Source: a virus. Taken from it: DNA of 29,596 nt. Positions within the stretch are counted from its first letter, which is position 1. Every line of letters begins with the position of its first letter. Positions 2,964 through 29,011 of this stretch are shown one piece after another. The notes under the pieces were generated by a model. That model made no database searches, was not told the DNA's origin, and saw only the letters and a list, made by a program, of their open reading frames with translations. The stretch is taken from positions 1-29,596 of IMG/VR virus record IMGVR_UViG_3300030104_004638; one strand, 5' to 3'. A program made the position numbers and the translations under genes.

Positions 2964-3393
2964 AACTTTTTTTATTTAATTTAATTTTTAATATATCTAT
3001 CTGATGTTCTAGTCTATTATTTTCATTTAATATCTGCTCATATTTATTTTCATTTAATAAATCATACTTAGTTTTAGTTATACTATAAGCTAAATCTAAA
3101 TTAGTATCAGTCCAATTACTATACTGAGTATAAGTATTATCATAAGTTTTTTTATAATGATTAATTAATTCATATTCAGTTTCATGATATTTTATATGTT
3201 TTTCTATAAACTCTATAGGCTTATTAAATATCTCTGAAATTTGAAACACATTATAATCCTGAGATAATAATATATGATAAACTATAGCTCTACAGTCTTT
3301 TATCCTGGGATTACTAAATACATTATAAAAATCTGCAAATTTTACAGAATTATAATAACAGCATATTCTAACTAATCTATTTACTGAAGGCAT
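2956..3393 (-). CDS. DnaA C-terminal-like HTH protein
   Basis: A 145-aa protein. Residues about 30-75 (KDCRAIVYHILLSQDYNV followed by FQISEIFNKPIEFIEKHI) follow the pattern of the DnaA domain IV helix-turn-helix: a helix with R..v.ylL, a turn, then eIs..F.k....v.khi. The remainder is Tyr/Asn-rich and ends in a coiled coil (about 115-140). It probably binds double-stranded DNA at the phage origin. There is no AAA+ module, so it is not a full initiator. The start overlaps the previous gene's 3' end, and it lies directly upstream of the SSB-like gene. Confidence 0.6.
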   Translation of the reverse strand: MPSVNRLVRICCYYNSVKFADFYNVFSNPRIKDCRAIVYHILLSQDYNVFQISEIFNKPIEFIEKHIKYHETEYELINHYKKTYDNTYTQYSNWTDTNLDLAYSITKTKYDLLNENKYEQILNENNRLEHQIDILKIKLNKKSYV

Positions 3394-3595
3394 TATCTAT
3401 ATATTTATCTTCTGCTATATAATCTTCTCCATAAATTAACATCTTATACTCCTCTGATTTATATTCTAAATAATCAATTACATCAATATCTTCACTTTTA
3501 TCTAACATTAATAAAACATCAGCTAAATCATCTTTATTACATCTTACTAAAATATCTGATGTATTATTACATAATATAATATAAGTACTCTCCAT
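3377..3595 (-). CDS. small acidic protein of unknown function
   Basis: A 72-aa acidic protein rich in Asp, Glu and Tyr. It starts MESTYIILCNNTSDILVRC, which looks like alternating beta strands, followed by a helical acidic segment (DDLADVLLMLDKSEDIDV). No family recognised. It overlaps both neighbours by a few bases within the replication operon, so it is certainly co-expressed with them. The acidic character is compatible with DNA mimicry, but nothing specific supports that. Confidence 0.6.
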   Translation of the reverse strand: MESTYIILCNNTSDILVRCNKDDLADVLLMLDKSEDIDVIDYLEYKSEEYKMLIYGEDYIAEDKYIDNAFSK

Positions 3596-4011
3596 TATTT
3601 ATTAAATTCTTCAGCTTCATCTTCTGAATAAAACCCAGCTAGATTAGCCATTTTAAGTACTACCCTAGCTAAACCTCTTTTTTCAGCCATACAGATAGGA
3701 AAATTTGATTTATTATTAGCTGGAGAAACTTCTCCAAAACTCTGAGCCATAGCCAAAGGCTGCCTAGTAGATCCCTGAGGGCCTTCTACCTCCTTCATAA
3801 TAGCTCCCTGAGCTAGTATTATACAGCTTTTATGATCTTCAGATATTTTTTCAATTTTAAAATTTACAGATATATCTAACTGAGCCTGAATTTTCTCTAT
3901 ACCAGCTCTAGTTATTATAGGTTTATCTTTTCCTCCAAACTTTAAAACAAAAATATCATCTTTTTCTAAATTATATTTTTTATATATTTCTTTTAGTTTA
4001 TTTGTATTCAT
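3595..4011 (-). CDS. conserved phage protein, possible recombination/annealing function
   Basis: A 138-aa protein. Two motifs stand out: KPIITRAGIEKIQAQLDISV near residues 29-48, and CMAEKRGLARVVLKMANLAG followed by FYSEDEAEEF at the C-terminus. Together with the middle segment FGEVSPANNKSNFP, this layout is familiar from phage early regions of Bacteroidota and marine phages, where it lies near SSB and exonuclease genes. The MAEKR..dR.vLKL helix recalls the end of single-strand annealing/ERF-like proteins, but I cannot confirm homology. Position upstream of the DnaA-C and SSB-like genes fits a DNA-metabolism role. Confidence 0.6.
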   Translation of the reverse strand: MNTNKLKEIYKKYNLEKDDIFVLKFGGKDKPIITRAGIEKIQAQLDISVNFKIEKISEDHKSCIILAQGAIMKEVEGPQGSTRQPLAMAQSFGEVSPANNKSNFPICMAEKRGLARVVLKMANLAGFYSEDEAEEFNK

Positions 4012-12631: not shown

Positions 12632-15070
12632 TTAAAAATTAGTAGCTGATCCTGATACTCTATCTTGACTTATTGTACTTCTAGTATTACTTAATAAAAT
12701 ATCACTACCTGAAATAGTACCATGTAATAAACCTCCTCCTACTCCCCCTATCATTCCTTTAAGTTTATCTAGTGGAGCTATTACTTCAGGATTAATAGCT
12801 GATGTTCCTGATCCCTCTCCTACATAAGCTAAAGTAGGCCCTGAAACAATACCCCCCTCAGCAAAAGGAGGGATAATAGCATTAAATATACCTCCTACTA
12901 CTATACCAGCAGTAGCCGCTAATATAGCATTAGCTGGCCAGGGCAATCCTTTTAAAGCACTAGCCGCCCAAGATGCAGTACCTTCAGCTATTTTAGTTTT
13001 AATAATATCTCTAGCAGCTGATTTAGTTTGTTGTACCATAGCTCCTAAACCTCCATCCTGACTATTAGCCATTTGTTCAAAAGCTGAGGATGTTTGCTGT
13101 TCTAACATAGATAGAGTTTCTTGCATTTCCTCAGTATCTAGGCTTCCCTTAATTTTTATTATAGGATTACCTTCTTCATCTACTTCTCCCTCTCCATCTC
13201 CTAAATTAATATCATCTATATTTAATACTCCATTTAACTCTACAGGATCTACTCCTTCATCTCCCCCTCCCATTAAATCATCTAATACACCTCCACCAGC
13301 TCCAGTTATAGTAGATATGATATTATCCATTCCATTTTTTACTTTACCTAAAGTTCTATCTACATCTTCCTCAGTAATAAATTCTACTTTTTCTTTAGAC
13401 TGGATATTATTTAAAGCATCATCCCAGTTTTTTTTAGTTTTATTAGCAAAAGCCTTAGCATCATCTCCCATCTGTTGCATAGCTTTCTTAAAATTAGGAG
13501 CTGGATTTCTAAAATTTATTACATCTTCTATAGCTCCCCCTATAGCTCCTAATACAGTTTTAACATTACCAAACATAAATTTTATATAATCCCATACAGT
13601 TTTAAAAGCAAATTTTAAAGTTTCTACAGCTACTTTAAATAACATAGATTCATTATATAAATCTATAAAACCATTTACTACCTCTACTATTTTTTTCTTA
13701 GTCCATTCCCAGTTTTTTATAAGTAAACCCACAGCCGCCACAATAGCTCCAATAATTAAACCAGCTGGCCCCATAGCAAATAAGGCTTTACCAGCTGAAA
13801 TAATAGCCCTCCCAGCCATTCTAACCACTTTTACCACAAAACCAAAAGCAGTAGTTAATTTTCCTATAATCATTAAAGTAGGCCCTATAGCTACTAAAGC
13901 TAATCCTATTTTAACTATTTTCTCTCTAGTTTCTTCACTTAAACTAGAAAAAGTTTTAGCCATTTTACTAAATACTCCAGCTAATTTAGTAGCTACAGGC
14001 ATTAAACTCTCTCCTAGTTTTACCCCAGCTACCTGAAGATCAGCCATAGCTTGTTTAAATTTAAAAGCTGAAGTTTGAGAAGTTTCATCAAAAGCATCAT
14101 TTACAAAACCCTGAGCATCTTCCATACTCCCTAAAATTTCTGTATAGCTTTCAGTTTGTGTACCTAGTACACCTAGTACTCCTTTTAAGGCTTGAGATTT
14201 ACTAAAAAATTCTGATAAAGGTATTCCAGCTGAGTTAAATTGTTCCTGTAAAAACATCAGAGTTTGTTGTAAACCCTGTTCTCCTAGCATAGTTCTTAAA
14301 TCATCAGCACTCATAGCTCCCCCCTCTAATCCCTGGGTAGCCTTTGCTAAAGCATCAGCAGCCTTAGGAGTAATCTTAGCAAAGCTCATCATAATTCCTG
14401 ATAAGCCAGTAGTAGCATCAGTAGCAGAGCCTGTAGTTCTAGTATAAGTAGAAATCATACTACCTAGCTCCTCCATGCTTATACCTAAATTAGATGCTAA
14501 ACCTAGCTGGGATCCTAGTACATTCGCCAGTTCCTCACTTTTGAACATACCAGTTTGTACCATAGTACCGAAAATATCTAAGGCTTGAGATGATGATAAA
14601 ACTTCTTCTCCATAGGCATTTTGAGCCGCCGCCGCCACAGTAGCCAAAGCCTCCATATCTCCTAAACCAGCGGCTGATCCTTTTGCTGTAGCCTCTAAGG
14701 CTCTTAAAGCTGATTCTCCATCTAAACCAGCTGAAGTTAAAAAGTATAAACCTTCAGCTAATTGATTAGGAGCTGTAGCAGTTTCTCCAGCTAAATTTAA
14801 AACAGAATCAGAAAGCTGATCTACAGCATCTTTAGGTAATCCTACTAGAGTTTGAATTTTAGTCATAGAGGACTCAAACTCAGAGGCTGTTTTAACAGCC
14901 GCAGCTCCAATACCAATTAAAGGTAAAGATACTCCAGTAGTAAGAGAAGATCCTACATTACCTATTTTTTTACCAAATTTATTTAGCTTACCCTCTACTT
15001 GTTTAAGACCTGAAGTAAAGGCTTCAGAATTAAGTTTTAAAAATACAGATAATGTTTTATTAGTACCCAT
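12632..15070 (-). CDS. tail tape measure protein
   Basis: An 812-aa protein. Residues about 30-270 match the TP901-1-type tape-measure domain: SLTTGVSLPLIGIGAAAVK, FESSMTKIQTLVGL, FLTSAGLDGESALRALEA and related segments. A hydrophobic stretch follows (about 385-450, with KIGLALVAIGPTLMIIGK and AAVGLLIKNW), then a helical and acidic linker (about 590-640) and a Gly/Ala-rich C-terminal membrane-like segment (about 695-735). The protein sets tail length; at about 0.15 nm per residue, 812 residues would suggest a tail somewhat over 100 nm. It follows the chaperone pair directly and starts right after the T stop. Confidence 0.92.
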   Translation of the reverse strand: MGTNKTLSVFLKLNSEAFTSGLKQVEGKLNKFGKKIGNVGSSLTTGVSLPLIGIGAAAVKTASEFESSMTKIQTLVGLPKDAVDQLSDSVLNLAGETATAPNQLAEGLYFLTSAGLDGESALRALEATAKGSAAGLGDMEALATVAAAAQNAYGEEVLSSSQALDIFGTMVQTGMFKSEELANVLGSQLGLASNLGISMEELGSMISTYTRTTGSATDATTGLSGIMMSFAKITPKAADALAKATQGLEGGAMSADDLRTMLGEQGLQQTLMFLQEQFNSAGIPLSEFFSKSQALKGVLGVLGTQTESYTEILGSMEDAQGFVNDAFDETSQTSAFKFKQAMADLQVAGVKLGESLMPVATKLAGVFSKMAKTFSSLSEETREKIVKIGLALVAIGPTLMIIGKLTTAFGFVVKVVRMAGRAIISAGKALFAMGPAGLIIGAIVAAVGLLIKNWEWTKKKIVEVVNGFIDLYNESMLFKVAVETLKFAFKTVWDYIKFMFGNVKTVLGAIGGAIEDVINFRNPAPNFKKAMQQMGDDAKAFANKTKKNWDDALNNIQSKEKVEFITEEDVDRTLGKVKNGMDNIISTITGAGGGVLDDLMGGGDEGVDPVELNGVLNIDDINLGDGEGEVDEEGNPIIKIKGSLDTEEMQETLSMLEQQTSSAFEQMANSQDGGLGAMVQQTKSAARDIIKTKIAEGTASWAASALKGLPWPANAILAATAGIVVGGIFNAIIPPFAEGGIVSGPTLAYVGEGSGTSAINPEVIAPLDKLKGMIGGVGGGLLHGTISGSDILLSNTRSTISQDRVSGSATNF

Positions 15071-15358
15071 TTAATTAGATTTTTTAGAATTTTTATTAGC
15101 TTTATTTATTAGGTACATAGCTTTCTTTCTTTCTTTATCTATATCTTTTATAGTAGATTGTTTCTCCCAATCAAATTTAATTAGGTCAGTTTGCTTTATT
15201 TGATCCTTCCTCTTGCGATCTTTATTTATAAGAGCTGTAGTTTGAAATCTTACTCTCTCCCACTCCATCCTCTGTAGCATATCTTCAAACTCCTTCCTAC
15301 TATCTAGTTTTAGCTGTAATTGTCTAGGAGTAAAATCCCAAAACTCAGCTACACTCAT
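15071..15358 (-). CDS. tail assembly chaperone, T-type part
   Basis: A 95-aa frame that begins in the sequence as MSVAEFWDFTPRQLQLKL, the typical gpT-like motif (..s..eFw..tp.el...) of tail assembly chaperones, followed by a charged helix rich in Lys. The ATG at 15358 is probably not the main start. The frame is open upstream through EGEEEITSPSIEDLFGLATG to the A10 run in the G gene, so the main product should be a G-T fusion made by -1 slippage. The chaperone coats the tape measure before tail-tube assembly. Confidence 0.75.
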   Translation of the reverse strand: MSVAEFWDFTPRQLQLKLDSRKEFEDMLQRMEWERVRFQTTALINKDRKRKDQIKQTDLIKFDWEKQSTIKDIDKERKKAMYLINKANKNSKKSN

Positions 15359-15750
15359 ATCTAAAAAACCAGTAGCAAGGCCAAATAAATCTTCAATACT
15401 AGGAGAAGTTATTTCTTCTTCTCCTTCTTTTTTTTTTCTGAAGGATTTAACTTAGCTAAAGATCCACCGAAAATCTCCATAGCCTCATTAAATACCCCCA
15501 TCCCTTCATCATCTATCCAATCAGCTACATCATCAGCAGTAAATTTAAAAGACTCTTTATTTCTTCTAGCTCCATGCTTTAATCCACAATATATAAGCTG
15601 AATAGCAGAGCTTAAAGATATATTTTGCCCTAAACTTCCTAACTCTTGTAAAGGAGTATTTGTTATATCACACCACTCTCCCAAAGCCGCAAATCCATAA
15701 TGGATAGGCCTCATTTCGCCACCTATTGCTATAGTTTTTTTATCTACCAT
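15071..15750 (-). CDS. G-T fusion tail assembly chaperone (programmed -1 frameshift)
   Basis: The G frame runs into ten consecutive A residues (T10 on the plus strand at 15428-15437). Slipping back by one base leaves the G frame, which would otherwise stop at TAA about 20 nt later, and enters an open frame: after the lysine run it reads EGEEEITSPSIEDLFG, then LATGFLD, and joins MSVAEFW of the T part. This is the standard G/GT arrangement of long-tailed phages, located immediately before the tape measure gene. The junction and frame are seen in the sequence; the slippage itself is inferred. Confidence 0.72.
15409..15750 (-). CDS. tail assembly chaperone, G-type part
   Basis: A 113-aa protein. 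The N-terminal beta segment (TIAIGGEMRPIHYGFAALGE) and the acidic helices that follow (LSSAIQLIYCGLKHG, then FTADDVADWIDDEG) match the fold pattern of small G-like tail chaperones. It ends in a Lys run encoded by an A10 tract (NPSEKKKKEKKK), where -1 slippage gives the longer G-T protein. It is preceded by an intergenic 58 bp with an 8-bp inverted repeat, and follows the two tail-tube genes as expected. Confidence 0.78.
   Translation of the reverse strand: MVDKKTIAIGGEMRPIHYGFAALGEWCDITNTPLQELGSLGQNISLSSAIQLIYCGLKHGARRNKESFKFTADDVADWIDDEGMGVFNEAMEIFGGSLAKLNPSEKKKKEKKK
15428..15437 (-). promoter_or_regulatory. A10 slippery site for -1 frameshifting
   Basis: A run of ten A residues on the coding strand near the 3' end of the G gene (frame 0: GAA AAA AAA AAG). 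A -1 shift here enters the T frame with no stop. G-rich GAAGGAGAAG follows immediately downstream. Confidence 0.7.
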
Positions 15751-15808: not shown

Positions 15809-16267
15809 TTAAGCATCAGTTAAAGCTCCACTACCCTGAATAGAAACAGAATATGTAGCCCATTCTGATATACCAGCATTAATAGAAATAGAAGTAATAT
15901 AACCCTCTCCAGTATATTCTCTAGCTCCAGTTTGACCAGTAGTATTAGAAAATTTAACATGAATCTTATCTCCTGATTCTAATACTGGATACCATCCACT
16001 ATCAGCAGTAGCTCCTCCTACTGGTATATCAGCACTATCAGAAGTACCATCAGTAAAATAAGCTTCACAGTCTAAAGTCCAGCTCCTAGCTCCATTTATA
16101 AATTCTTTATTTCCCTGAGATTGCTTATTTGTAACATCTATAGTTTCCTGATTAATGTTTAAAGTACAAGTAGTAGAGCCTCCTACAGCAGTATAAGAAT
16201 ATGGAGCAGTTCCATCTAAATCTACTGATAATACGAGATTACTCCCTGAAATTGTTTTAACAGCCAT
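15809..16267 (-). CDS. major tail tube protein, copy 2
   Basis: A 152-aa beta-rich protein: AVKTISGSNLVLSVDLDG at the start, CTLNINQETIDVTNKQSQG in the middle, a RSWTLDCEAYF core motif, and GYITSISINAGISEWATYSV with SIQGSGAL at the end. This is the TP901-1-type tail tube pattern (S-W-x-x-x-x-E/D-g..., G.g.it..s..g......y...l.G.G.l). It is clearly related to the gene just upstream, sharing SWTLDCEA, GYITS and SIQG.G.L. The subunits stack as hexamers to form the tail tube. Confidence 0.85.
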   Translation of the reverse strand: MAVKTISGSNLVLSVDLDGTAPYSYTAVGGSTTCTLNINQETIDVTNKQSQGNKEFINGARSWTLDCEAYFTDGTSDSADIPVGGATADSGWYPVLESGDKIHVKFSNTTGQTGAREYTGEGYITSISINAGISEWATYSVSIQGSGALTDA

Positions 16268-16300
16268 TTTTTATTATTTTTTATTATTACACATTTATTT

Positions 16301-16753
16301 TTAAGCCATAGATAGAGTACCAGTACCCTGTATAGATATACTATAAGTACCAGCATCTTCAGTACCTCCAGTTATACTCATACTAGTTATGTAACCTGAT
16401 CCATGAAACTCATTACTACCAGCATCAAAATCTACATAAACCTCTCTAGGATATTGTACTACTCCATTTTGTGATGCATTAGCATCTCCATAAGCTGCTG
16501 GAAACATAGTTGTAGGATTTTTTACCCCAGCATCCTCATTATAGAAAGCTTCACAATCTAAAGTCCAAGAGCTACCCAAGCCTATAAATTCTTTTCTATC
16601 TCCTGAAGATTTATCGGTAACCTCTCCCATATCTATAGTAAGATTTACAGTACATGAAGTAGCCGCAGCGATAACAGCAGCTCCACCCTGAGTAGGAGAT
16701 GTATCATCATCTATTTTTAGTACCATATTAGTACCATTAATTACTGTAGCCAT
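16301..16753 (-). CDS. major tail tube protein, copy 1
   Basis: A 150-aa paralogue of the next gene: NGTNMVLKIDDD at the start, CTVNLTIDMGEVTDKSSG, SSWTLDCEAFYNED, and GYITSMSITGGTEDAGTYSI with SIQGTGTL at the end. By eye the two proteins share roughly 35-45% identity, highest in the last 30 residues, with the largest difference in the loop after the SWTLDCEA motif (about residues 68-110). They are separated by only 33 bp of A/T-rich sequence. Tail tubes are usually built from a single protein, so two copies suggest a mixed tube or a division of roles. Confidence 0.83.
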   Translation of the reverse strand: MATVINGTNMVLKIDDDTSPTQGGAAVIAAATSCTVNLTIDMGEVTDKSSGDRKEFIGLGSSWTLDCEAFYNEDAGVKNPTTMFPAAYGDANASQNGVVQYPREVYVDFDAGSNEFHGSGYITSMSITGGTEDAGTYSISIQGTGTLSMA

Positions 16754-16756
16754 ATT

Positions 16757-16975
16757 TTAACTTTTTAAATTTTTACTTTTATTATTATCTTTTTTATCTT
16801 CTTTTTCAGTTTTTGTTATTTCTGTTTTTTCTTTTTTTTCTTTTATTAAATTATATTCATCTTCTATTAAACCTAATTCATATAATACTTTATAAGATTG
16901 TATATCTACTGGATTAGCTTTATCTCCTTTTCTTTTACCTTTACCATCTTTTATAATGTTTACTAAATATCCCAT
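16757..16975 (-). CDS. small charged protein between tail terminator and tail tube genes
   Basis: A 72-aa protein. The N-terminal 40 residues (MGYLVNIIKDGKGKRKGDKA followed by a short helical piece) look like a mini-domain. The C-terminal half is a low-complexity Lys/Glu/Thr/Asp tail (IKEKKEKTEITKTEKEDKKD). No family recognised. It is in the late block between structural genes, 3 bp upstream of the first tail-tube gene, and could be a minor virion or assembly factor. Confidence 0.6.
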   Translation of the reverse strand: MGYLVNIIKDGKGKRKGDKANPVDIQSYKVLYELGLIEDEYNLIKEKKEKTEITKTEKEDKKDNNKSKNLKS

Positions 16976-16982
16976 TTTAAAA

Positions 16983-18437
16983 TTATTTTAGTTGTTCATA
17001 TTTATTATAAATATATTCTTTTACTTTTTTATATATTATATCTGTAGGCTGGAATGGAGCAGTATCTTCATCTTTATTATGAGTCTGAGCTTCATTAGGT
17101 ATAAACATTAAAAACTCATACATCCTAAACCCTTTAGAGGAAATACCAGCATGGCCTATACTTTTAAAACTAAAATTACTACCTACTGTAGACTCCATAT
17201 TATCAGTATTACCAGTAATTAGATTATCTTGTAAAATTTGTCCAGTAGTTAATTTAGGATTATAATTTGAGTTAAAATACTCATACCATCCAGCCTGATT
17301 AACATTTCCTCCAGTATAATTTTTACTACCCCCCAAAGATAAGCATAAAAAATGATAATCACCTACCCAATACTTGCTATCATCTGTAGAATTTATTAAA
17401 GTTCTCTCTCTACTAGCTCCAGTAAAACTATTAGCATGAGGATTAAAGTGGATAGTAATAGTAGATCCTACTTTTTTATGAGATAAAAGTATAGGATTAA
17501 AATTAACAGCATCATACTGATTACCTAAAATATAATTTTCTCCATCCTCTCCTACTGGCTTATATACCATTATAAACATAGCCCCATAGGGCAAAAAAAT
17601 AGAATTATCTCCTATTATTTGAGATGATGCCCTACTCATTAAATTATTCCTAGTAGAAAAATATAAAAAAGGCTTAGTATTTTCTACTATTCCATCTTGA
17701 TATTTAGGCATATATGTAGGATTAGCTACATCACTAGATCTCAAATAAGAATAAAAAGTATCATTATAAAAAGTATTAGTAGCTGGATTTATACATAAAT
17801 TTTTAGTAGTTCCTAGTTTATTAAATGAATAAACTACAGTAGAATTATCTGATAATTTTTTATCATAATCAACACCTCCACTAAAAGGAGAAAGATCATC
17901 TCTCATTAAATTAACCTGAGTAAAATCACAGCATAACATTAGAGGATTAGTAGGAGTTTTATTATTTGAATTTTTTAAATCATAACTTAATCTAATAATA
18001 TCATAATAATAATATACATCATACTCTACCCTTTTAGTATATATTTCTAATTTATCAAAATAATCATCTTCCTCCTCTTGATAAAAAATATGAGATATAT
18101 CTACATTTCCTATAAAACTATGATTATTACCATTCTCATAATATCCAGGTACTTCAGCTAATCCAGCTGATGTTTTATCTACATAAATATCTAATACATC
18201 TCTTATTTTAGTATTTAAAATTTCTACTTCTTTATAACTTTTAGCTATAATCTGTAAAGTTAATCTATTATATAATATATTAGGGGAGTCATCTTTAGAA
18301 GTTTCAGGATCATTATAGTTATGATATACTACTACTGGATAATCTACATTCTGAGGCACTACATTAGGATATATACCTCCAGTAGCTAAATCAGAGATTT
18401 TACTTTTAAGGATTTTATATATTGCTTTTCCTATCAT
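16983..18437 (-). CDS. tail terminator (DUF3168-like) fused to a LamG/ConA-like domain, copy 2
   Basis: A 484-aa protein. Residues 1-145 resemble DUF3168 tail terminator proteins: YPNVVPQNVDYPVVVYHNYN, RLTLQIIAKSYKEVEILNTK, then a LEIYTKRVEYDVYYYY strand. A second region (about 160-484) is beta-rich with a LamG/concanavalin-like plan: KPFLYFSTRNNLMS (a ...l.F.....l. strand), GAMFIMVYKP (the central strand), and a closing FRMYEFLMFIPNE...YKKVKEYIYNKYEQLK segment like the E-i-l-i-y...v..yl..KY ending of LamG-like domains. A normal tail terminator is about 130 aa, so the extra 330 residues are the oddity. Its start overlaps the stop of its paralogue (TAATG). Confidence 0.68.
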   Translation of the reverse strand: MIGKAIYKILKSKISDLATGGIYPNVVPQNVDYPVVVYHNYNDPETSKDDSPNILYNRLTLQIIAKSYKEVEILNTKIRDVLDIYVDKTSAGLAEVPGYYENGNNHSFIGNVDISHIFYQEEEDDYFDKLEIYTKRVEYDVYYYYDIIRLSYDLKNSNNKTPTNPLMLCCDFTQVNLMRDDLSPFSGGVDYDKKLSDNSTVVYSFNKLGTTKNLCINPATNTFYNDTFYSYLRSSDVANPTYMPKYQDGIVENTKPFLYFSTRNNLMSRASSQIIGDNSIFLPYGAMFIMVYKPVGEDGENYILGNQYDAVNFNPILLSHKKVGSTITIHFNPHANSFTGASRERTLINSTDDSKYWVGDYHFLCLSLGGSKNYTGGNVNQAGWYEYFNSNYNPKLTTGQILQDNLITGNTDNMESTVGSNFSFKSIGHAGISSKGFRMYEFLMFIPNEAQTHNKDEDTAPFQPTDIIYKKVKEYIYNKYEQLK

Positions 18438-19954
18438 TAGTTAGTAATTCTATTTAACATGTTATGCTTTTCTATAATTTGTCTTTTTATTTGTAAATAC
18501 TTACTACTTCCAAAGGTTAAGGCTTCAGGCCACATAACAAAATCATATAAATTAAAAGGATCATTCATATTGAAAGTACCAGCTCCTAAAGTATCATAAC
18601 TCCCTATATCAGTATGTATAGTTTCAAAATTAAAAAAACCCTCTTTAAAGTATGTAGTAGCATTATCACTCCAACTACTATACTCATTTTCATCCCCATA
18701 AGCAGTAAAATCTGAAGATGTAATCAATTCATACTGTCCCTCTATTACAGTATTATCTCCTTCTCTTAATTTAAAACTAACAGCAAAAAAGAAGGGATCT
18801 TCAAAACTTAAATCAGTAAACATCCCAAAAAGAGGCCAAGATACTATACCACTAAAAAAATTAAAACCTCTATGATTATCAGCTCCAGCATTATTTTCTA
18901 AAGCCATACCTCCCCCATTAAATTTAGTTAATTGCATAGCAGTACCCCCAGCTTGTACCTCAGTATATAAAAAAACAGATGCTATAGAGTTAGTATTAGC
19001 ATTTTCTTTAAATAAAACATTAGCACATTTACCAAAATCATAAGATTGAGGTATTCTAAGTACTGTAAAAAAGGTTAATTCTTTATATTTTCTAGCAACT
19101 CTATTAGGGCCATGTTGAGATTTTAAATAATTACTAGTATCAAATTCTAGATAAAAATTACTATTATATTTAGGAGGATTAGATATATCTTTTTTTAATG
19201 TAGGCCTACTAGAATTATTAGCCATAGTACGATTAAAATTTTCATATACTCCATCTAAAGTAGAATTAATTATATTAGGATTATCACTCTGTAAAACTGA
19301 TGGAGAAAATAAATAATTTACTTGCTCATTAATTTGTATGGGCTGCCTATATCTAGGATTTGCTGTAGCTATAGGATTATAAGCCATTAAATTAAAATCA
19401 GTAAATTTTAAATTTACATCAGCTCCCCAAATACTTAAATCATCTACATATACTAAATCAAAATTTAAAGTACTTCTATATATTTCTAATTTTTCATCAT
19501 AGGATTCAGTTATAGAAATAAGTTCAATAAATTGAATCTGTAAACCTCCTACATATTGTACATCTCCAGTACTAGGAGGAGGAAAATCTCCAAAATTATA
19601 AGGAATAGAAGAAATAGGAAAACCAAAACCTACACTAACAGAAGTAGCACTATTATAAGAATTTTTATATCTATGTAATTGATTAGATATTAAAGTAGAT
19701 AGAGATGATATATCTGAATATGTTTTAGATAAAATATCTAAATCTATAGATACTATATTATTAGGAGATCTAAGTTCTTTTATCTTATCAGGAGATGTTT
19801 TTTCTATAGTATAAACTACACAGGGATAAGATGTATTCTGAGGCTTTACATTAGGATATAATCTATCATTTAATATATTTTGTATTTCATACTGAGGATT
19901 ATCAAAACTAGTATCATCTCCTAGTAATAACCATTTTAAAGCTTTACCTACCAT
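18437..19954 (-). CDS. tail terminator (DUF3168-like) fused to a LamG/ConA-like domain, copy 1
   Basis: A 505-aa paralogue of the next gene. The N-terminal domain (1-175) shares YPNVKPQNTSYPCVVYTIE, SIDLDILSKTYSDISSLST and the YDEKLEIYRSTLNFDLVY strand. The C-terminal part (about 185-505) is beta-rich: FYLEFDTSNYLKSQ, ELTFFTVLRIP, PFFFAVSFKLREGDN and the closing LYDFVMWPEAL...YLQIKRQIIEKHNML, again a LamG-like start and end. It directly follows the gp10-like gene, the standard slot for the tail terminator that caps the tube and meets the connector. The added domain would sit outside the neck or tail and could bind glycans; that is inference. Confidence 0.68.
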   Translation of the reverse strand: MVGKALKWLLLGDDTSFDNPQYEIQNILNDRLYPNVKPQNTSYPCVVYTIEKTSPDKIKELRSPNNIVSIDLDILSKTYSDISSLSTLISNQLHRYKNSYNSATSVSVGFGFPISSIPYNFGDFPPPSTGDVQYVGGLQIQFIELISITESYDEKLEIYRSTLNFDLVYVDDLSIWGADVNLKFTDFNLMAYNPIATANPRYRQPIQINEQVNYLFSPSVLQSDNPNIINSTLDGVYENFNRTMANNSSRPTLKKDISNPPKYNSNFYLEFDTSNYLKSQHGPNRVARKYKELTFFTVLRIPQSYDFGKCANVLFKENANTNSIASVFLYTEVQAGGTAMQLTKFNGGGMALENNAGADNHRGFNFFSGIVSWPLFGMFTDLSFEDPFFFAVSFKLREGDNTVIEGQYELITSSDFTAYGDENEYSSWSDNATTYFKEGFFNFETIHTDIGSYDTLGAGTFNMNDPFNLYDFVMWPEALTFGSSKYLQIKRQIIEKHNMLNRITN

Positions 19955-20404
19955 TTACATCCAAAATTTACCTATTAATTTTTTTACACCTTCTATAATT
20001 AATTTAGCTGTAATTCCTTTGGTACTTTCAAAAGCATCAGCCAAAAAGGGAGTACTTTTTTCAGTCATTCCATCTCCTCTAGTTTTGTGAGGATAGGCTG
20101 CAAAAGCTACATACCAGCCCTTATTTCTATCTTTTTTTCTATACCTAGCTCCTACTCTTACTCCTGTTTTAGTTCGCCACCTACCTACTGATTTTTTAAG
20201 TATTTTAGTTTCATCTGTAGGAGCTAAATCCTTCATAATTGAAGCCATGGGCTTAGCTGCATTAAATACTATTTTATTTATTTCTGTATTAGCCTTCCTA
20301 GCTGAAAATTTATCTTTAATACGATCTAATCCCCTAATAAGAGATTTTAAATCATCATTATCAATATCTAAATCTATTGCCCTGTTTTTATTTCTAGCAC
20401 TCAT
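19955..20404 (-). CDS. HK97 gp10-like head-tail/tail-completion protein
   Basis: A 149-aa protein starting with the DDLKSLIRGLDRIKDKF helix, followed by INKIVFNAAKPMASIMKDLA, a basic middle (GRWRTKTGVRVGARYRKKD), WYVAFAAYPHKTRG and a closing helix. This is the arrangement of the HK97 gp10 family found between head-closure and tail-terminator genes. It probably acts in joining or completing the neck. It overlaps the upstream gene at the stop/start (TAATG). Confidence 0.82.
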   Translation of the reverse strand: MSARNKNRAIDLDIDNDDLKSLIRGLDRIKDKFSARKANTEINKIVFNAAKPMASIMKDLAPTDETKILKKSVGRWRTKTGVRVGARYRKKDRNKGWYVAFAAYPHKTRGDGMTEKSTPFLADAFESTKGITAKLIIEGVKKLIGKFWM

Positions 20405-27577: not shown

Positions 27578-27708
27578 CCCTGTCCTCTAGATACTTTTAT
27601 ATAGTTATCAGAATTTTTATTTTTACTTTGTTTAGTTTTCGCATGAATACCTCTCCTTTTTTTTCTTTTATTTGGAGAAAATCTCCACACATTTTTTTTA
27701 GTAGCCAT
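27574..27708 (-). CDS. 44-aa basic protein between methyltransferase and terL
   Basis: ATG at 27708 opens a 44-codon frame whose TGA overlaps the terL ATG (ATGA). The product starts MATKKNVWRFSPNKRKKRRG and ends SDNYIKVSRGQG; the basic stretch and the (N)Y-x-K-x-x-R-G-Q-G ending recur in small proteins next to terL in phages of this kind, to my recollection. The high Lys/Arg content suggests nucleic-acid contact. It lies where terS and terL would otherwise touch, so it may help packaging; that is inference. Confidence 0.68.
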   Translation of the reverse strand: MATKKNVWRFSPNKRKKRRGIHAKTKQSKNKNSDNYIKVSRGQG

Positions 27709-29011
27709 TTTTTAATATCTCTTTAATTATATAATACATTACATCAGATGTCATACTATTACCAGCCTGTTTATAAAGTTGAGTATCAGATAATCCCTCC
27801 TCTTTACATCTGTAATAAAACTCATCAGGAAACCCCTGTAATCTTAAACACTCTAAAGGAGTTAATCTTCTTATTCTTTTTTGCTCTAGTATTTTAGGCT
27901 CTAATCCTCCTCCCTGCATACAATTAAGAGCTGGAGCTATACCATCTTTACTATATATTCTACCCCTTTGAGGATTATCAAAATTACCAGTATTAACTAT
28001 ATTACCTACCTGTATTATTTTACTCTCTTTTATCATAAAATCTTTTGATACAGAGCTAATACAATTACTTATATCATCTTTTCTCTCCTCTATCTTACCT
28101 TCCTCTCCTCTATAGTTCCTAGTTCTATAGGCTACTGATTTGATTTCTATAGCCTGAGCATTACCAGTATCTATACAATAAGAAGTATTGTCATCTTTAC
28201 TCAGAGGCCCAGTACCTCCTTTACCAGTTTTACTAGATCTAGGATATAAGCTATGAGTTCTTATATATTGTTGATCTCTACCTCCTCCTTTATAATATGC
28301 AGCTGTTAAAGTAGCTGATATATCTTTATCTAAACTTTTATTATTATGTCTTTTAATTCTATCTACAGCCTTATCACTCAAATAATACTTATCATCTACT
28401 TCCTCCTCTAATAAATCAGCTAATTTTTTTTCTAATTTAAAAGGTTTAGGCCATTTAAAAGTATGATTATCATCTCTAAATCCTACTATAAATACTCTCT
28501 CTCTGTTTTGAGGTAATCCAAAATCTTTAGTATTAAATACTTTATAATAAACATGATAATTTAATCCATCTTTATACATAGTAAAGCTATACTGTTTATT
28601 AACACTTTTAGCTAAACAGTCTAAAATAACTGCAAAGGTCTGCCCTTTATTATGAGATAATAATCCTTTTACATTTTCTAATATAAAATACTTAGGCCTT
28701 TGAGCTTTTAAATACTGAAGTAAATCAAAAAATAATGTACCTCTAGTATCATCAAATCCCTTCCTCTTACCAGCCATGCTAAAAGCTTGACATGGAAATC
28801 CAGCTACATATAAATCTACATAAGGAGTATTATTATGATTTCTAGTAGTAATATCATCATAGAAATTTTCAGTATTATGATTTATTAAATAGCTCTGTTT
28901 AGCATATTTATCAAAATCACAAGCAAACATACTTTTGAAATCTACTCCTAAATTTTTTAAAGCTATTTCAGGAGAGCCTATACCTGAGAAATCTGTACCT
29001 ACTTTTAACAT
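27698..29011 (-). CDS. C5-cytosine DNA methyltransferase
   Basis: A 437-aa enzyme with the motifs in canonical order: motif I GTDFSGIGSPEIAL (SAM binding), motif IV GFPCQAFSMAGKRKG with the catalytic Cys, motif VI ENVKGL, motif VIII QNRERVFIVGFR, a target-recognition region (about 210-375), motif IX RRLTPLECLRLQGFP and motif X QAGNSMTSDV. It transfers methyl groups to C5 of cytosine in a sequence context I cannot deduce. No partner restriction enzyme is nearby, so it is probably an orphan enzyme protecting phage DNA. Its place between terS and terL is unusual and suggests insertion. The first gene's stop lies three bases upstream of its start. Confidence 0.95.
   Translation of the reverse strand: MLKVGTDFSGIGSPEIALKNLGVDFKSMFACDFDKYAKQSYLINHNTENFYDDITTRNHNNTPYVDLYVAGFPCQAFSMAGKRKGFDDTRGTLFFDLLQYLKAQRPKYFILENVKGLLSHNKGQTFAVILDCLAKSVNKQYSFTMYKDGLNYHVYYKVFNTKDFGLPQNRERVFIVGFRDDNHTFKWPKPFKLEKKLADLLEEEVDDKYYLSDKAVDRIKRHNNKSLDKDISATLTAAYYKGGGRDQQYIRTHSLYPRSSKTGKGGTGPLSKDDNTSYCIDTGNAQAIEIKSVAYRTRNYRGEEGKIEERKDDISNCISSVSKDFMIKESKIIQVGNIVNTGNFDNPQRGRIYSKDGIAPALNCMQGGGLEPKILEQKRIRRLTPLECLRLQGFPDEFYYRCKEEGLSDTQLYKQAGNSMTSDVMYYIIKEILKNGY

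Follow-up and report, generated by a model that had tools for sequence, protein, structure and literature searches.

Paired tail tube genes and paired tail terminator genes in one phage clade: a candidate two-component tail

Introduction

Phage tail tubes are the standard example of an assembly in which identical rings are made from a single protein. The stretch of DNA analysed here, called the window, is one entire virus record of 29,596 bases (IMG/VR, IMGVR_UViG_3300030104_004638), and its tail region holds two related tube genes together with two related terminator genes. This locus raises the question of whether a single tail can combine two types of tube subunit, and how such subunits would be arranged. 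The host is probably a marine member of the Bacteroidota, because of a distant capsid match to a Cellulophaga phage and the AT-rich genes. Within the literature library covered, no paper on this two-tube clade was found.

Organization of the tail locus

The tail genes lie on the minus strand in the order HK97 gp10-like neck protein, terminator T1, terminator T2, a 72-aa gene, tube B, tube A, two small genes, and tape measure. The HK97 gp10-like neck or tail completion protein (19955..20404; phrog_5, 1.8e-9) is present in a single copy and is followed by T1 (505 aa, 18437..19954) and T2 (484 aa, 16983..18437). The 72-aa protein (16757..16975) has no family match and holds a conserved position in the gap between T2 and tube B. 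The small gene in this gap encodes 56–83 aa across the relatives, and a 59-aa gene occupies the equivalent place in single-copy phages. Tube B (150 aa, 16301..16753) is transcribed before tube A (152 aa, 15809..16267), with an A-rich spacer of 33 nt (16268..16300) running from the TAA stop of B to the start of A. The single-copy tail protein downstream of tube A (15409..15750; phrog_2115, 4e-7) is conserved in position and is probably a tail assembly chaperone. A second single-copy small gene ahead of the tape measure (15071..15358; phrog_16333, 6e-12; weak match to PF09550 TAC) possibly encodes the other half of a chaperone pair. The tape measure protein itself has 812 aa (12632..15070; PF10145, 1.1e-18; phrog_1533, 4.6e-64). 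A and B thereby sit between the terminator genes and the chaperone and tape measure genes, and no ORF of sheath size was found between the terminators and the tape measure. Elsewhere in the window, a Dcm-like DNA cytosine methyltransferase flanked by terminase subunit genes was recognised by eye from its translation (27698-29011).

The tube proteins as paralogs of one family

Aligned by BLASTP across 152 columns, tube proteins A and B show 37% identity and 58% positives, a similarity far beyond chance (E=3e-28). Both lie above the Pfam gathering cut-off of PF06199 (61.6 bits for A and 36.6 bits for B against 23.8), and both match the major tail protein family phrog_1407 (4.6e-28 and 1.7e-17). 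A is the closer of the pair to the ordinary PF06199/phrog_1407 family, and B is the more divergent paralog. Judged from these sequence matches, A and B are paralogous tube-type proteins of one tube family, and the adjacent, related tail-tube genes that the preliminary description had reported at 15809-16753 are borne out. The three motifs it had named (SWTLDCEA, GYITS.SI..G and SIQG.G.L) are each found in A and B alike, the latter two as GYITS-S-I--G and SIQG-G-L. Tube B additionally carries a conserved extra loop, YGD-ASQNGV-QYP, behind the helix, which occurs neither in A nor in the single-copy relatives. Both proteins retain a T-K-S-K-F core in the long loop that links strand 2 to strand 3, and six residues of this stacking loop are fixed differently in A and B. 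The same loop joins rings in the solved tubes of P74-26, SPP1, and YSD1 (PMC10034513). A tblastn search found no relative of tube B among named phages, and tube A had one weak relative in the 84,980 bacterial and archaeal genomes scanned.

For structure, a joint B–A model was obtained by translating across the window's in-frame spacer, with TAA taken as Gly, on a six-row alignment in which stops were read as residues. The resulting hetero-dimer is poor (pLDDT 50.5, pTM 0.42) and unusable for interfaces. At this low confidence, the A half matches the tubes of monocin (Z 8.7), GTA (Z 8.1), lambda, and SPP1, and the B half those of SPR (Z 7.6), HFTV1, Milano, and JBD30; with a second structural aligner, the halves give Z 6–9 overall against solved tube proteins. 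Sequence-profile searches of the PDB connect A with the monocin tube 8qhs (1.3e-11) and GTA Rcc01691 (3.1e-6), and B, weakly, with the monocin tube (0.0012). Because of the model matches to solved tubes and the profile matches by sequence, the tube core is probably intact in A and B alike. The preliminary description had held that a copy lacking this core would speak against its proposal, and no such loss was seen: the order of strands and helix is identical in the two halves of the low-confidence model (pLDDT 50.5), and both match solved tubes.

The duplicated terminators and their added domains

T1 and T2 share 27% identity across ~170 N-terminal residues (E=2e-11). Both match the tail terminator family phrog_347 (1.7e-9 and 4.2e-6, respectively), and both fall under the Pfam cut-off for PF11367. 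The genes at 16983-18437 and 18437-19954 are thus paralogous, and the duplicated terminator gene noticed in the preliminary description is upheld. Two long terminators of 460–524 aa are present in 17/17 contigs that reach far enough (window counted), and the tree separates them into distinct groups (T1 clade 100/99, T2 clade 96/92).

Each terminator has an extra C-terminal region of ~330 aa, alike in length, which the single-copy relatives lack. In the AF2 model of T2 (pLDDT 82.8, pTM 0.85), residues 1-147 match the terminators of phiXacJX1, GTA, T5, and lambda (Z 12–15). Residues ~145-484 match jelly-roll carbohydrate-binding folds (Z 12–17), the top match being a cyanophage tailspike (Z 17.2), and the C-terminal region of T2 is accordingly modelled as a jelly-roll, lectin-like domain. 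The C-terminal regions of T1 and T2 are colinear, and no homology is claimed for them because their similarity is weak (E 0.0064, probability 6%). Although likeness of fold does not establish function, the neck of the two-tube phages may carry a lectin-like, candidate carbohydrate-binding collar. Carbohydrate-binding modules are described in the neck passage of lactococcal phages of the 936 group (PMC6669499).

Spread, phylogeny, and selection

Single-protein and profile scans yielded 25 further IMG/VR contigs with both tube genes, with B before A every time, and one additional contig that ends inside B. Some of the 25 contigs are near-copies, and 22 distinct A/B pairs entered the tree. Mean identity is 58% among the A proteins and 64% among the B proteins, but 36% when A is compared with B, so each copy is under constraint of its own. 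In the 58-row tree, A forms a clade with support of 95/64 and B a separate one with 98/98. The single-copy relatives fall with B (99/94), and a single clade of A plus B is only marginally compatible with the data (p-AU 0.0525). Since A and B, like T1 and T2, form separate clades and both pairs are present throughout, the two duplications predate the entire clade as sampled. On this phylogenetic evidence, the duplication of tube and terminator genes is old and fixed in the clade. Comparison with the tail loci of related phages, suggested earlier as a means of dating, therefore places the duplication before the sampled clade.

Between close pairs, dN/dS is 0.02–0.29 in A and 0.05–0.30 in B, neither being consistently faster, and these ratios indicate purifying selection on A as well as on B. 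The alignment and dN/dS calculation proposed for the pair itself succeeded in part: the identity of 37% stands, but the A–B dN/dS of 0.84 was set aside because in this AT-rich genome synonymous sites are unreliable at such a distance. The leaders of A and B are both A-rich (10–17 of 20 bases), and capsid-like codon usage favours A in 6/10 genomes and B in 4/10. As weak proxies for product amount, these signals give no sign of either copy being a minor product.

Two other accounts of the gene pair were rejected. Tape measures have 781–829 aa in the two-tube clade versus 602–1122 aa in single-tube phages; the tapes are not doubled, and a second tube gene for a longer tail is thus unsupported. 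A fused or read-through B–A product is contradicted by the separate ORFs, the TAA stop of B, and the relative reading frame of the two genes, which is not conserved across relatives; the spacer is 18–52 nt in the 22 relatives tabulated.

Single-copy relatives and other lineages with two tube genes

Several related contigs (L036-L037, L039-L043, and L047) have the genes in the same order but a single terminator, of 135 aa, and a single tube gene, for a protein of 145 aa. Cellulophaga phage phi39:1 (KC821626) is also alike in gene order but differs in having one terminator-position gene without the added domain (gp17, 122 aa) and one tube gene (gp18, 150 aa). Sequence comparison identifies gp18 as a tube homolog, and mass spectrometry is reported to have detected both proteins in virions. 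One tube gene and one terminator are likewise present in Streptococcus phage CSJC and in Paenibacillus phage HB10c2. Furthermore, the 175 named phage records matching tube A do so at one place apiece, with similar counts when two other members were used as query. The earlier statement that a single tube gene is usual is thereby confirmed for most tested phages of the family of A and B.

Two tube genes are also found outside the clade, and those of L038 and L064 proved on checking to match the tube family. L038 (146+256 aa) and L045/L046 (149+250 aa), which group together in the tree, each have one terminator. Their PF06199-type pairs lie at L038:6001-7221, L045:2871-4097, and L046:2653-3879, beside a short terminator, and the second tube gene has ~100 extra residues near the N-terminus, ahead of the tube core. 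L064, a Candidatus Cloacimonadota MAG contig, has adjacent tube genes of 135+134 aa (3128-3962) and one terminator. Its two tube copies differ with dN/dS of ~0.19, and the pair apparently arose by a separate and younger duplication. Another two-tube lineage, near the single-copy group, is seen at the contig end L063:3-654, where a complete tube gene comes after the C-terminal part of a first. From L038, L045/L046, and L064 it follows that the doubling of the tube gene happened or was kept more than once, and also that tube and terminator duplications are separable. The two duplications co-occur perfectly, but within one clade only.

A proposed two-component tail and its alternatives

The window phage and about 25 relatives, which make up the clade, probably assemble their tails from two types of tube subunit and not the usual one. 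On balance, we infer that A and B are tube paralogs made in quantity, and that both are present in the virion in bulk as parts of one non-contractile tail. In the ancestor, a single tube gene would have doubled in tandem, as would the neighbouring single terminator gene, and each copy would then have specialised and been retained. In the likeliest arrangement, A and B would alternate round a mixed ring of six subunits with threefold symmetry (A3B3), and T1 and T2 would together form the terminator ring that caps this tube. A precedent for a two-component ring is given by the fused tubes of T5 and P74-26, which are pseudo-hexameric trimers (PMC5717097, PMC10034513). The phiCbK tube has also been described as threefold. 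The terminator ring contacts the last tube ring, and two terminators would suit a tube end with two kinds of surface. A mixed tube needs no two terminators, since in T5 a threefold tube is paired with one terminator hexamer, going by the titles of the structure entries. Of the earlier proposal that a tail of two subunit types goes with the duplicated terminator, the tube-type pair, with each copy long constrained, therefore stands, and the link to the terminators is limited to one clade. The fullest version, a tail that is threefold from the cap down, with A3B3 rings, a T1/T2 hetero-hexamer terminator, and alternating lectin-like domains as collar, is doubtful. If true, such a tail would achieve with two genes what the fused T5/P74-26 tubes achieve with one, and the asymmetry would extend into the terminator.

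Stacked rings of A alone and of B alone are nearly as likely as A3B3. A stack of alternating homohexamers is unlikely when taken by itself; it falls under the reading in which both proteins are used in bulk, and its probability overlaps with that reading. The stacking loop, with its shared T, K, S, K, and F core and six A/B-fixed differences, has the pattern that contacts of A rings with B rings would lead one to expect. However, a hand count gives no clear excess of differing residues in the loop (6/11 versus 11/33 at other conserved sites), so the pattern decides nothing, and among solved tails we know of none in which rings alternate. The strongest rival, which we regard as doubtful, is that one copy forms nearly the whole tube and the other supplies one or a few end rings, at the terminator side or the tail tip, fitting the tube to the structure next to it. 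In contractile systems, tube paralogs that serve one end are well established. AlgoCIS, for example, uses Alg1 as tube, Alg5/Alg7 of the same fold as tube initiator, and Alg16A/Alg16B as stacked caps (PMC8894135). B would fit such a role, being more divergent (36.6 versus 61.6 bits), having a derived conserved loop, and adjoining the duplicated terminators. Against it, leader and codon signals mark neither copy as low-level, and the two evolve at similar rates. Moreover, A and B both precede the tape measure, unlike initiator-type tube proteins, whose genes usually lie among those of the baseplate and follow the tape measure.

It is quite unlikely that one copy was acquired horizontally from another phage, in which case A and B need not co-assemble and may serve alternative or staged uses. 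The grouping of the single-copy relatives with B and the marginal p-AU value point in this direction, and transfer has been suggested for the pair of the cluster DJ Gordonia phages (PMC12859696). Yet common origin was not rejected by the test, long stems may mislead, and the fixed tandem order and parallel divergence in all members argue for joint use. It is extremely improbable that one copy is redundant or decaying and lacks a role of its own; no observation in favour of this was made, and dN/dS of 0.02–0.30 in both copies and the retention of both in all relatives contradict it. Our preference thus remains with the bulk use of A and B in one tail.

Comparison with known systems

Paired tube genes are already known, yet unexplained, in actinophages. 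Two related major tail genes occur in cluster DJ Gordonia phages (PMC12859696) and also in clusters EL, AM, AU, AW, BI, and CC (PMC11080557). The cluster DJ phages resemble the window in having two homologous tube genes near the terminator and upstream of the tape measure; their pair is 43% identical in FortCran and retained in 56/56 DJ phages. The DJ/EL-type actinophages differ in their larger tube proteins, a gene between the copies, and one annotated terminator. A and B match phrog_1407 and not phrog_2645, the actinophage DJ/EL-type family seen in Microbacterium phage DizzyRudy. This phage encodes three phrog_2645 proteins, two of them 51% identical across 216 residues. The three major tail genes lie near one another (L087:5783-9803), and the middle product has 586 aa, of which the first 219 residues match phrog_2645. 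New here are the other tube family, the host group, probably Bacteroidota, and the paired long terminators.

In SPP1, one gene yields both major tail forms by recoding. A long/short pair of this type does not apply here, as A and B are complete genes with their own starts and are 37% identical. The likeness to SPP1 gp17.1/gp17.1* (cited in PMC8718954) is that of two major tail proteins per phage. AlgoCIS is alike in combining tube-fold paralogs with two cap proteins in one machine (PMC8894135), but it is contractile, and there the additional tube-fold proteins are part of the initiator of the tube, at the spike. A and B differ from contractile tube-initiator paralogs of the Alg5/Alg7 or T4 gp54 type, which are encoded with baseplate genes, in lying upstream of the tape measure. 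In T5 pb6 and P74-26, as proposed here, two diverged tube-domain copies make the tube (PMC5717097, PMC10034513); there the copies are fused in a single protein, whereas the window clade has two genes. The clade would be a likely intermediate ahead of a fused tube such as pb6. With two tubes and two terminators beside syntenic relatives that have one of each, it offers a natural before and after of the passage from a homo-hexamer to a two-component assembly, and the same question is raised by many actinophages, whose double tube genes are likewise unexplained.
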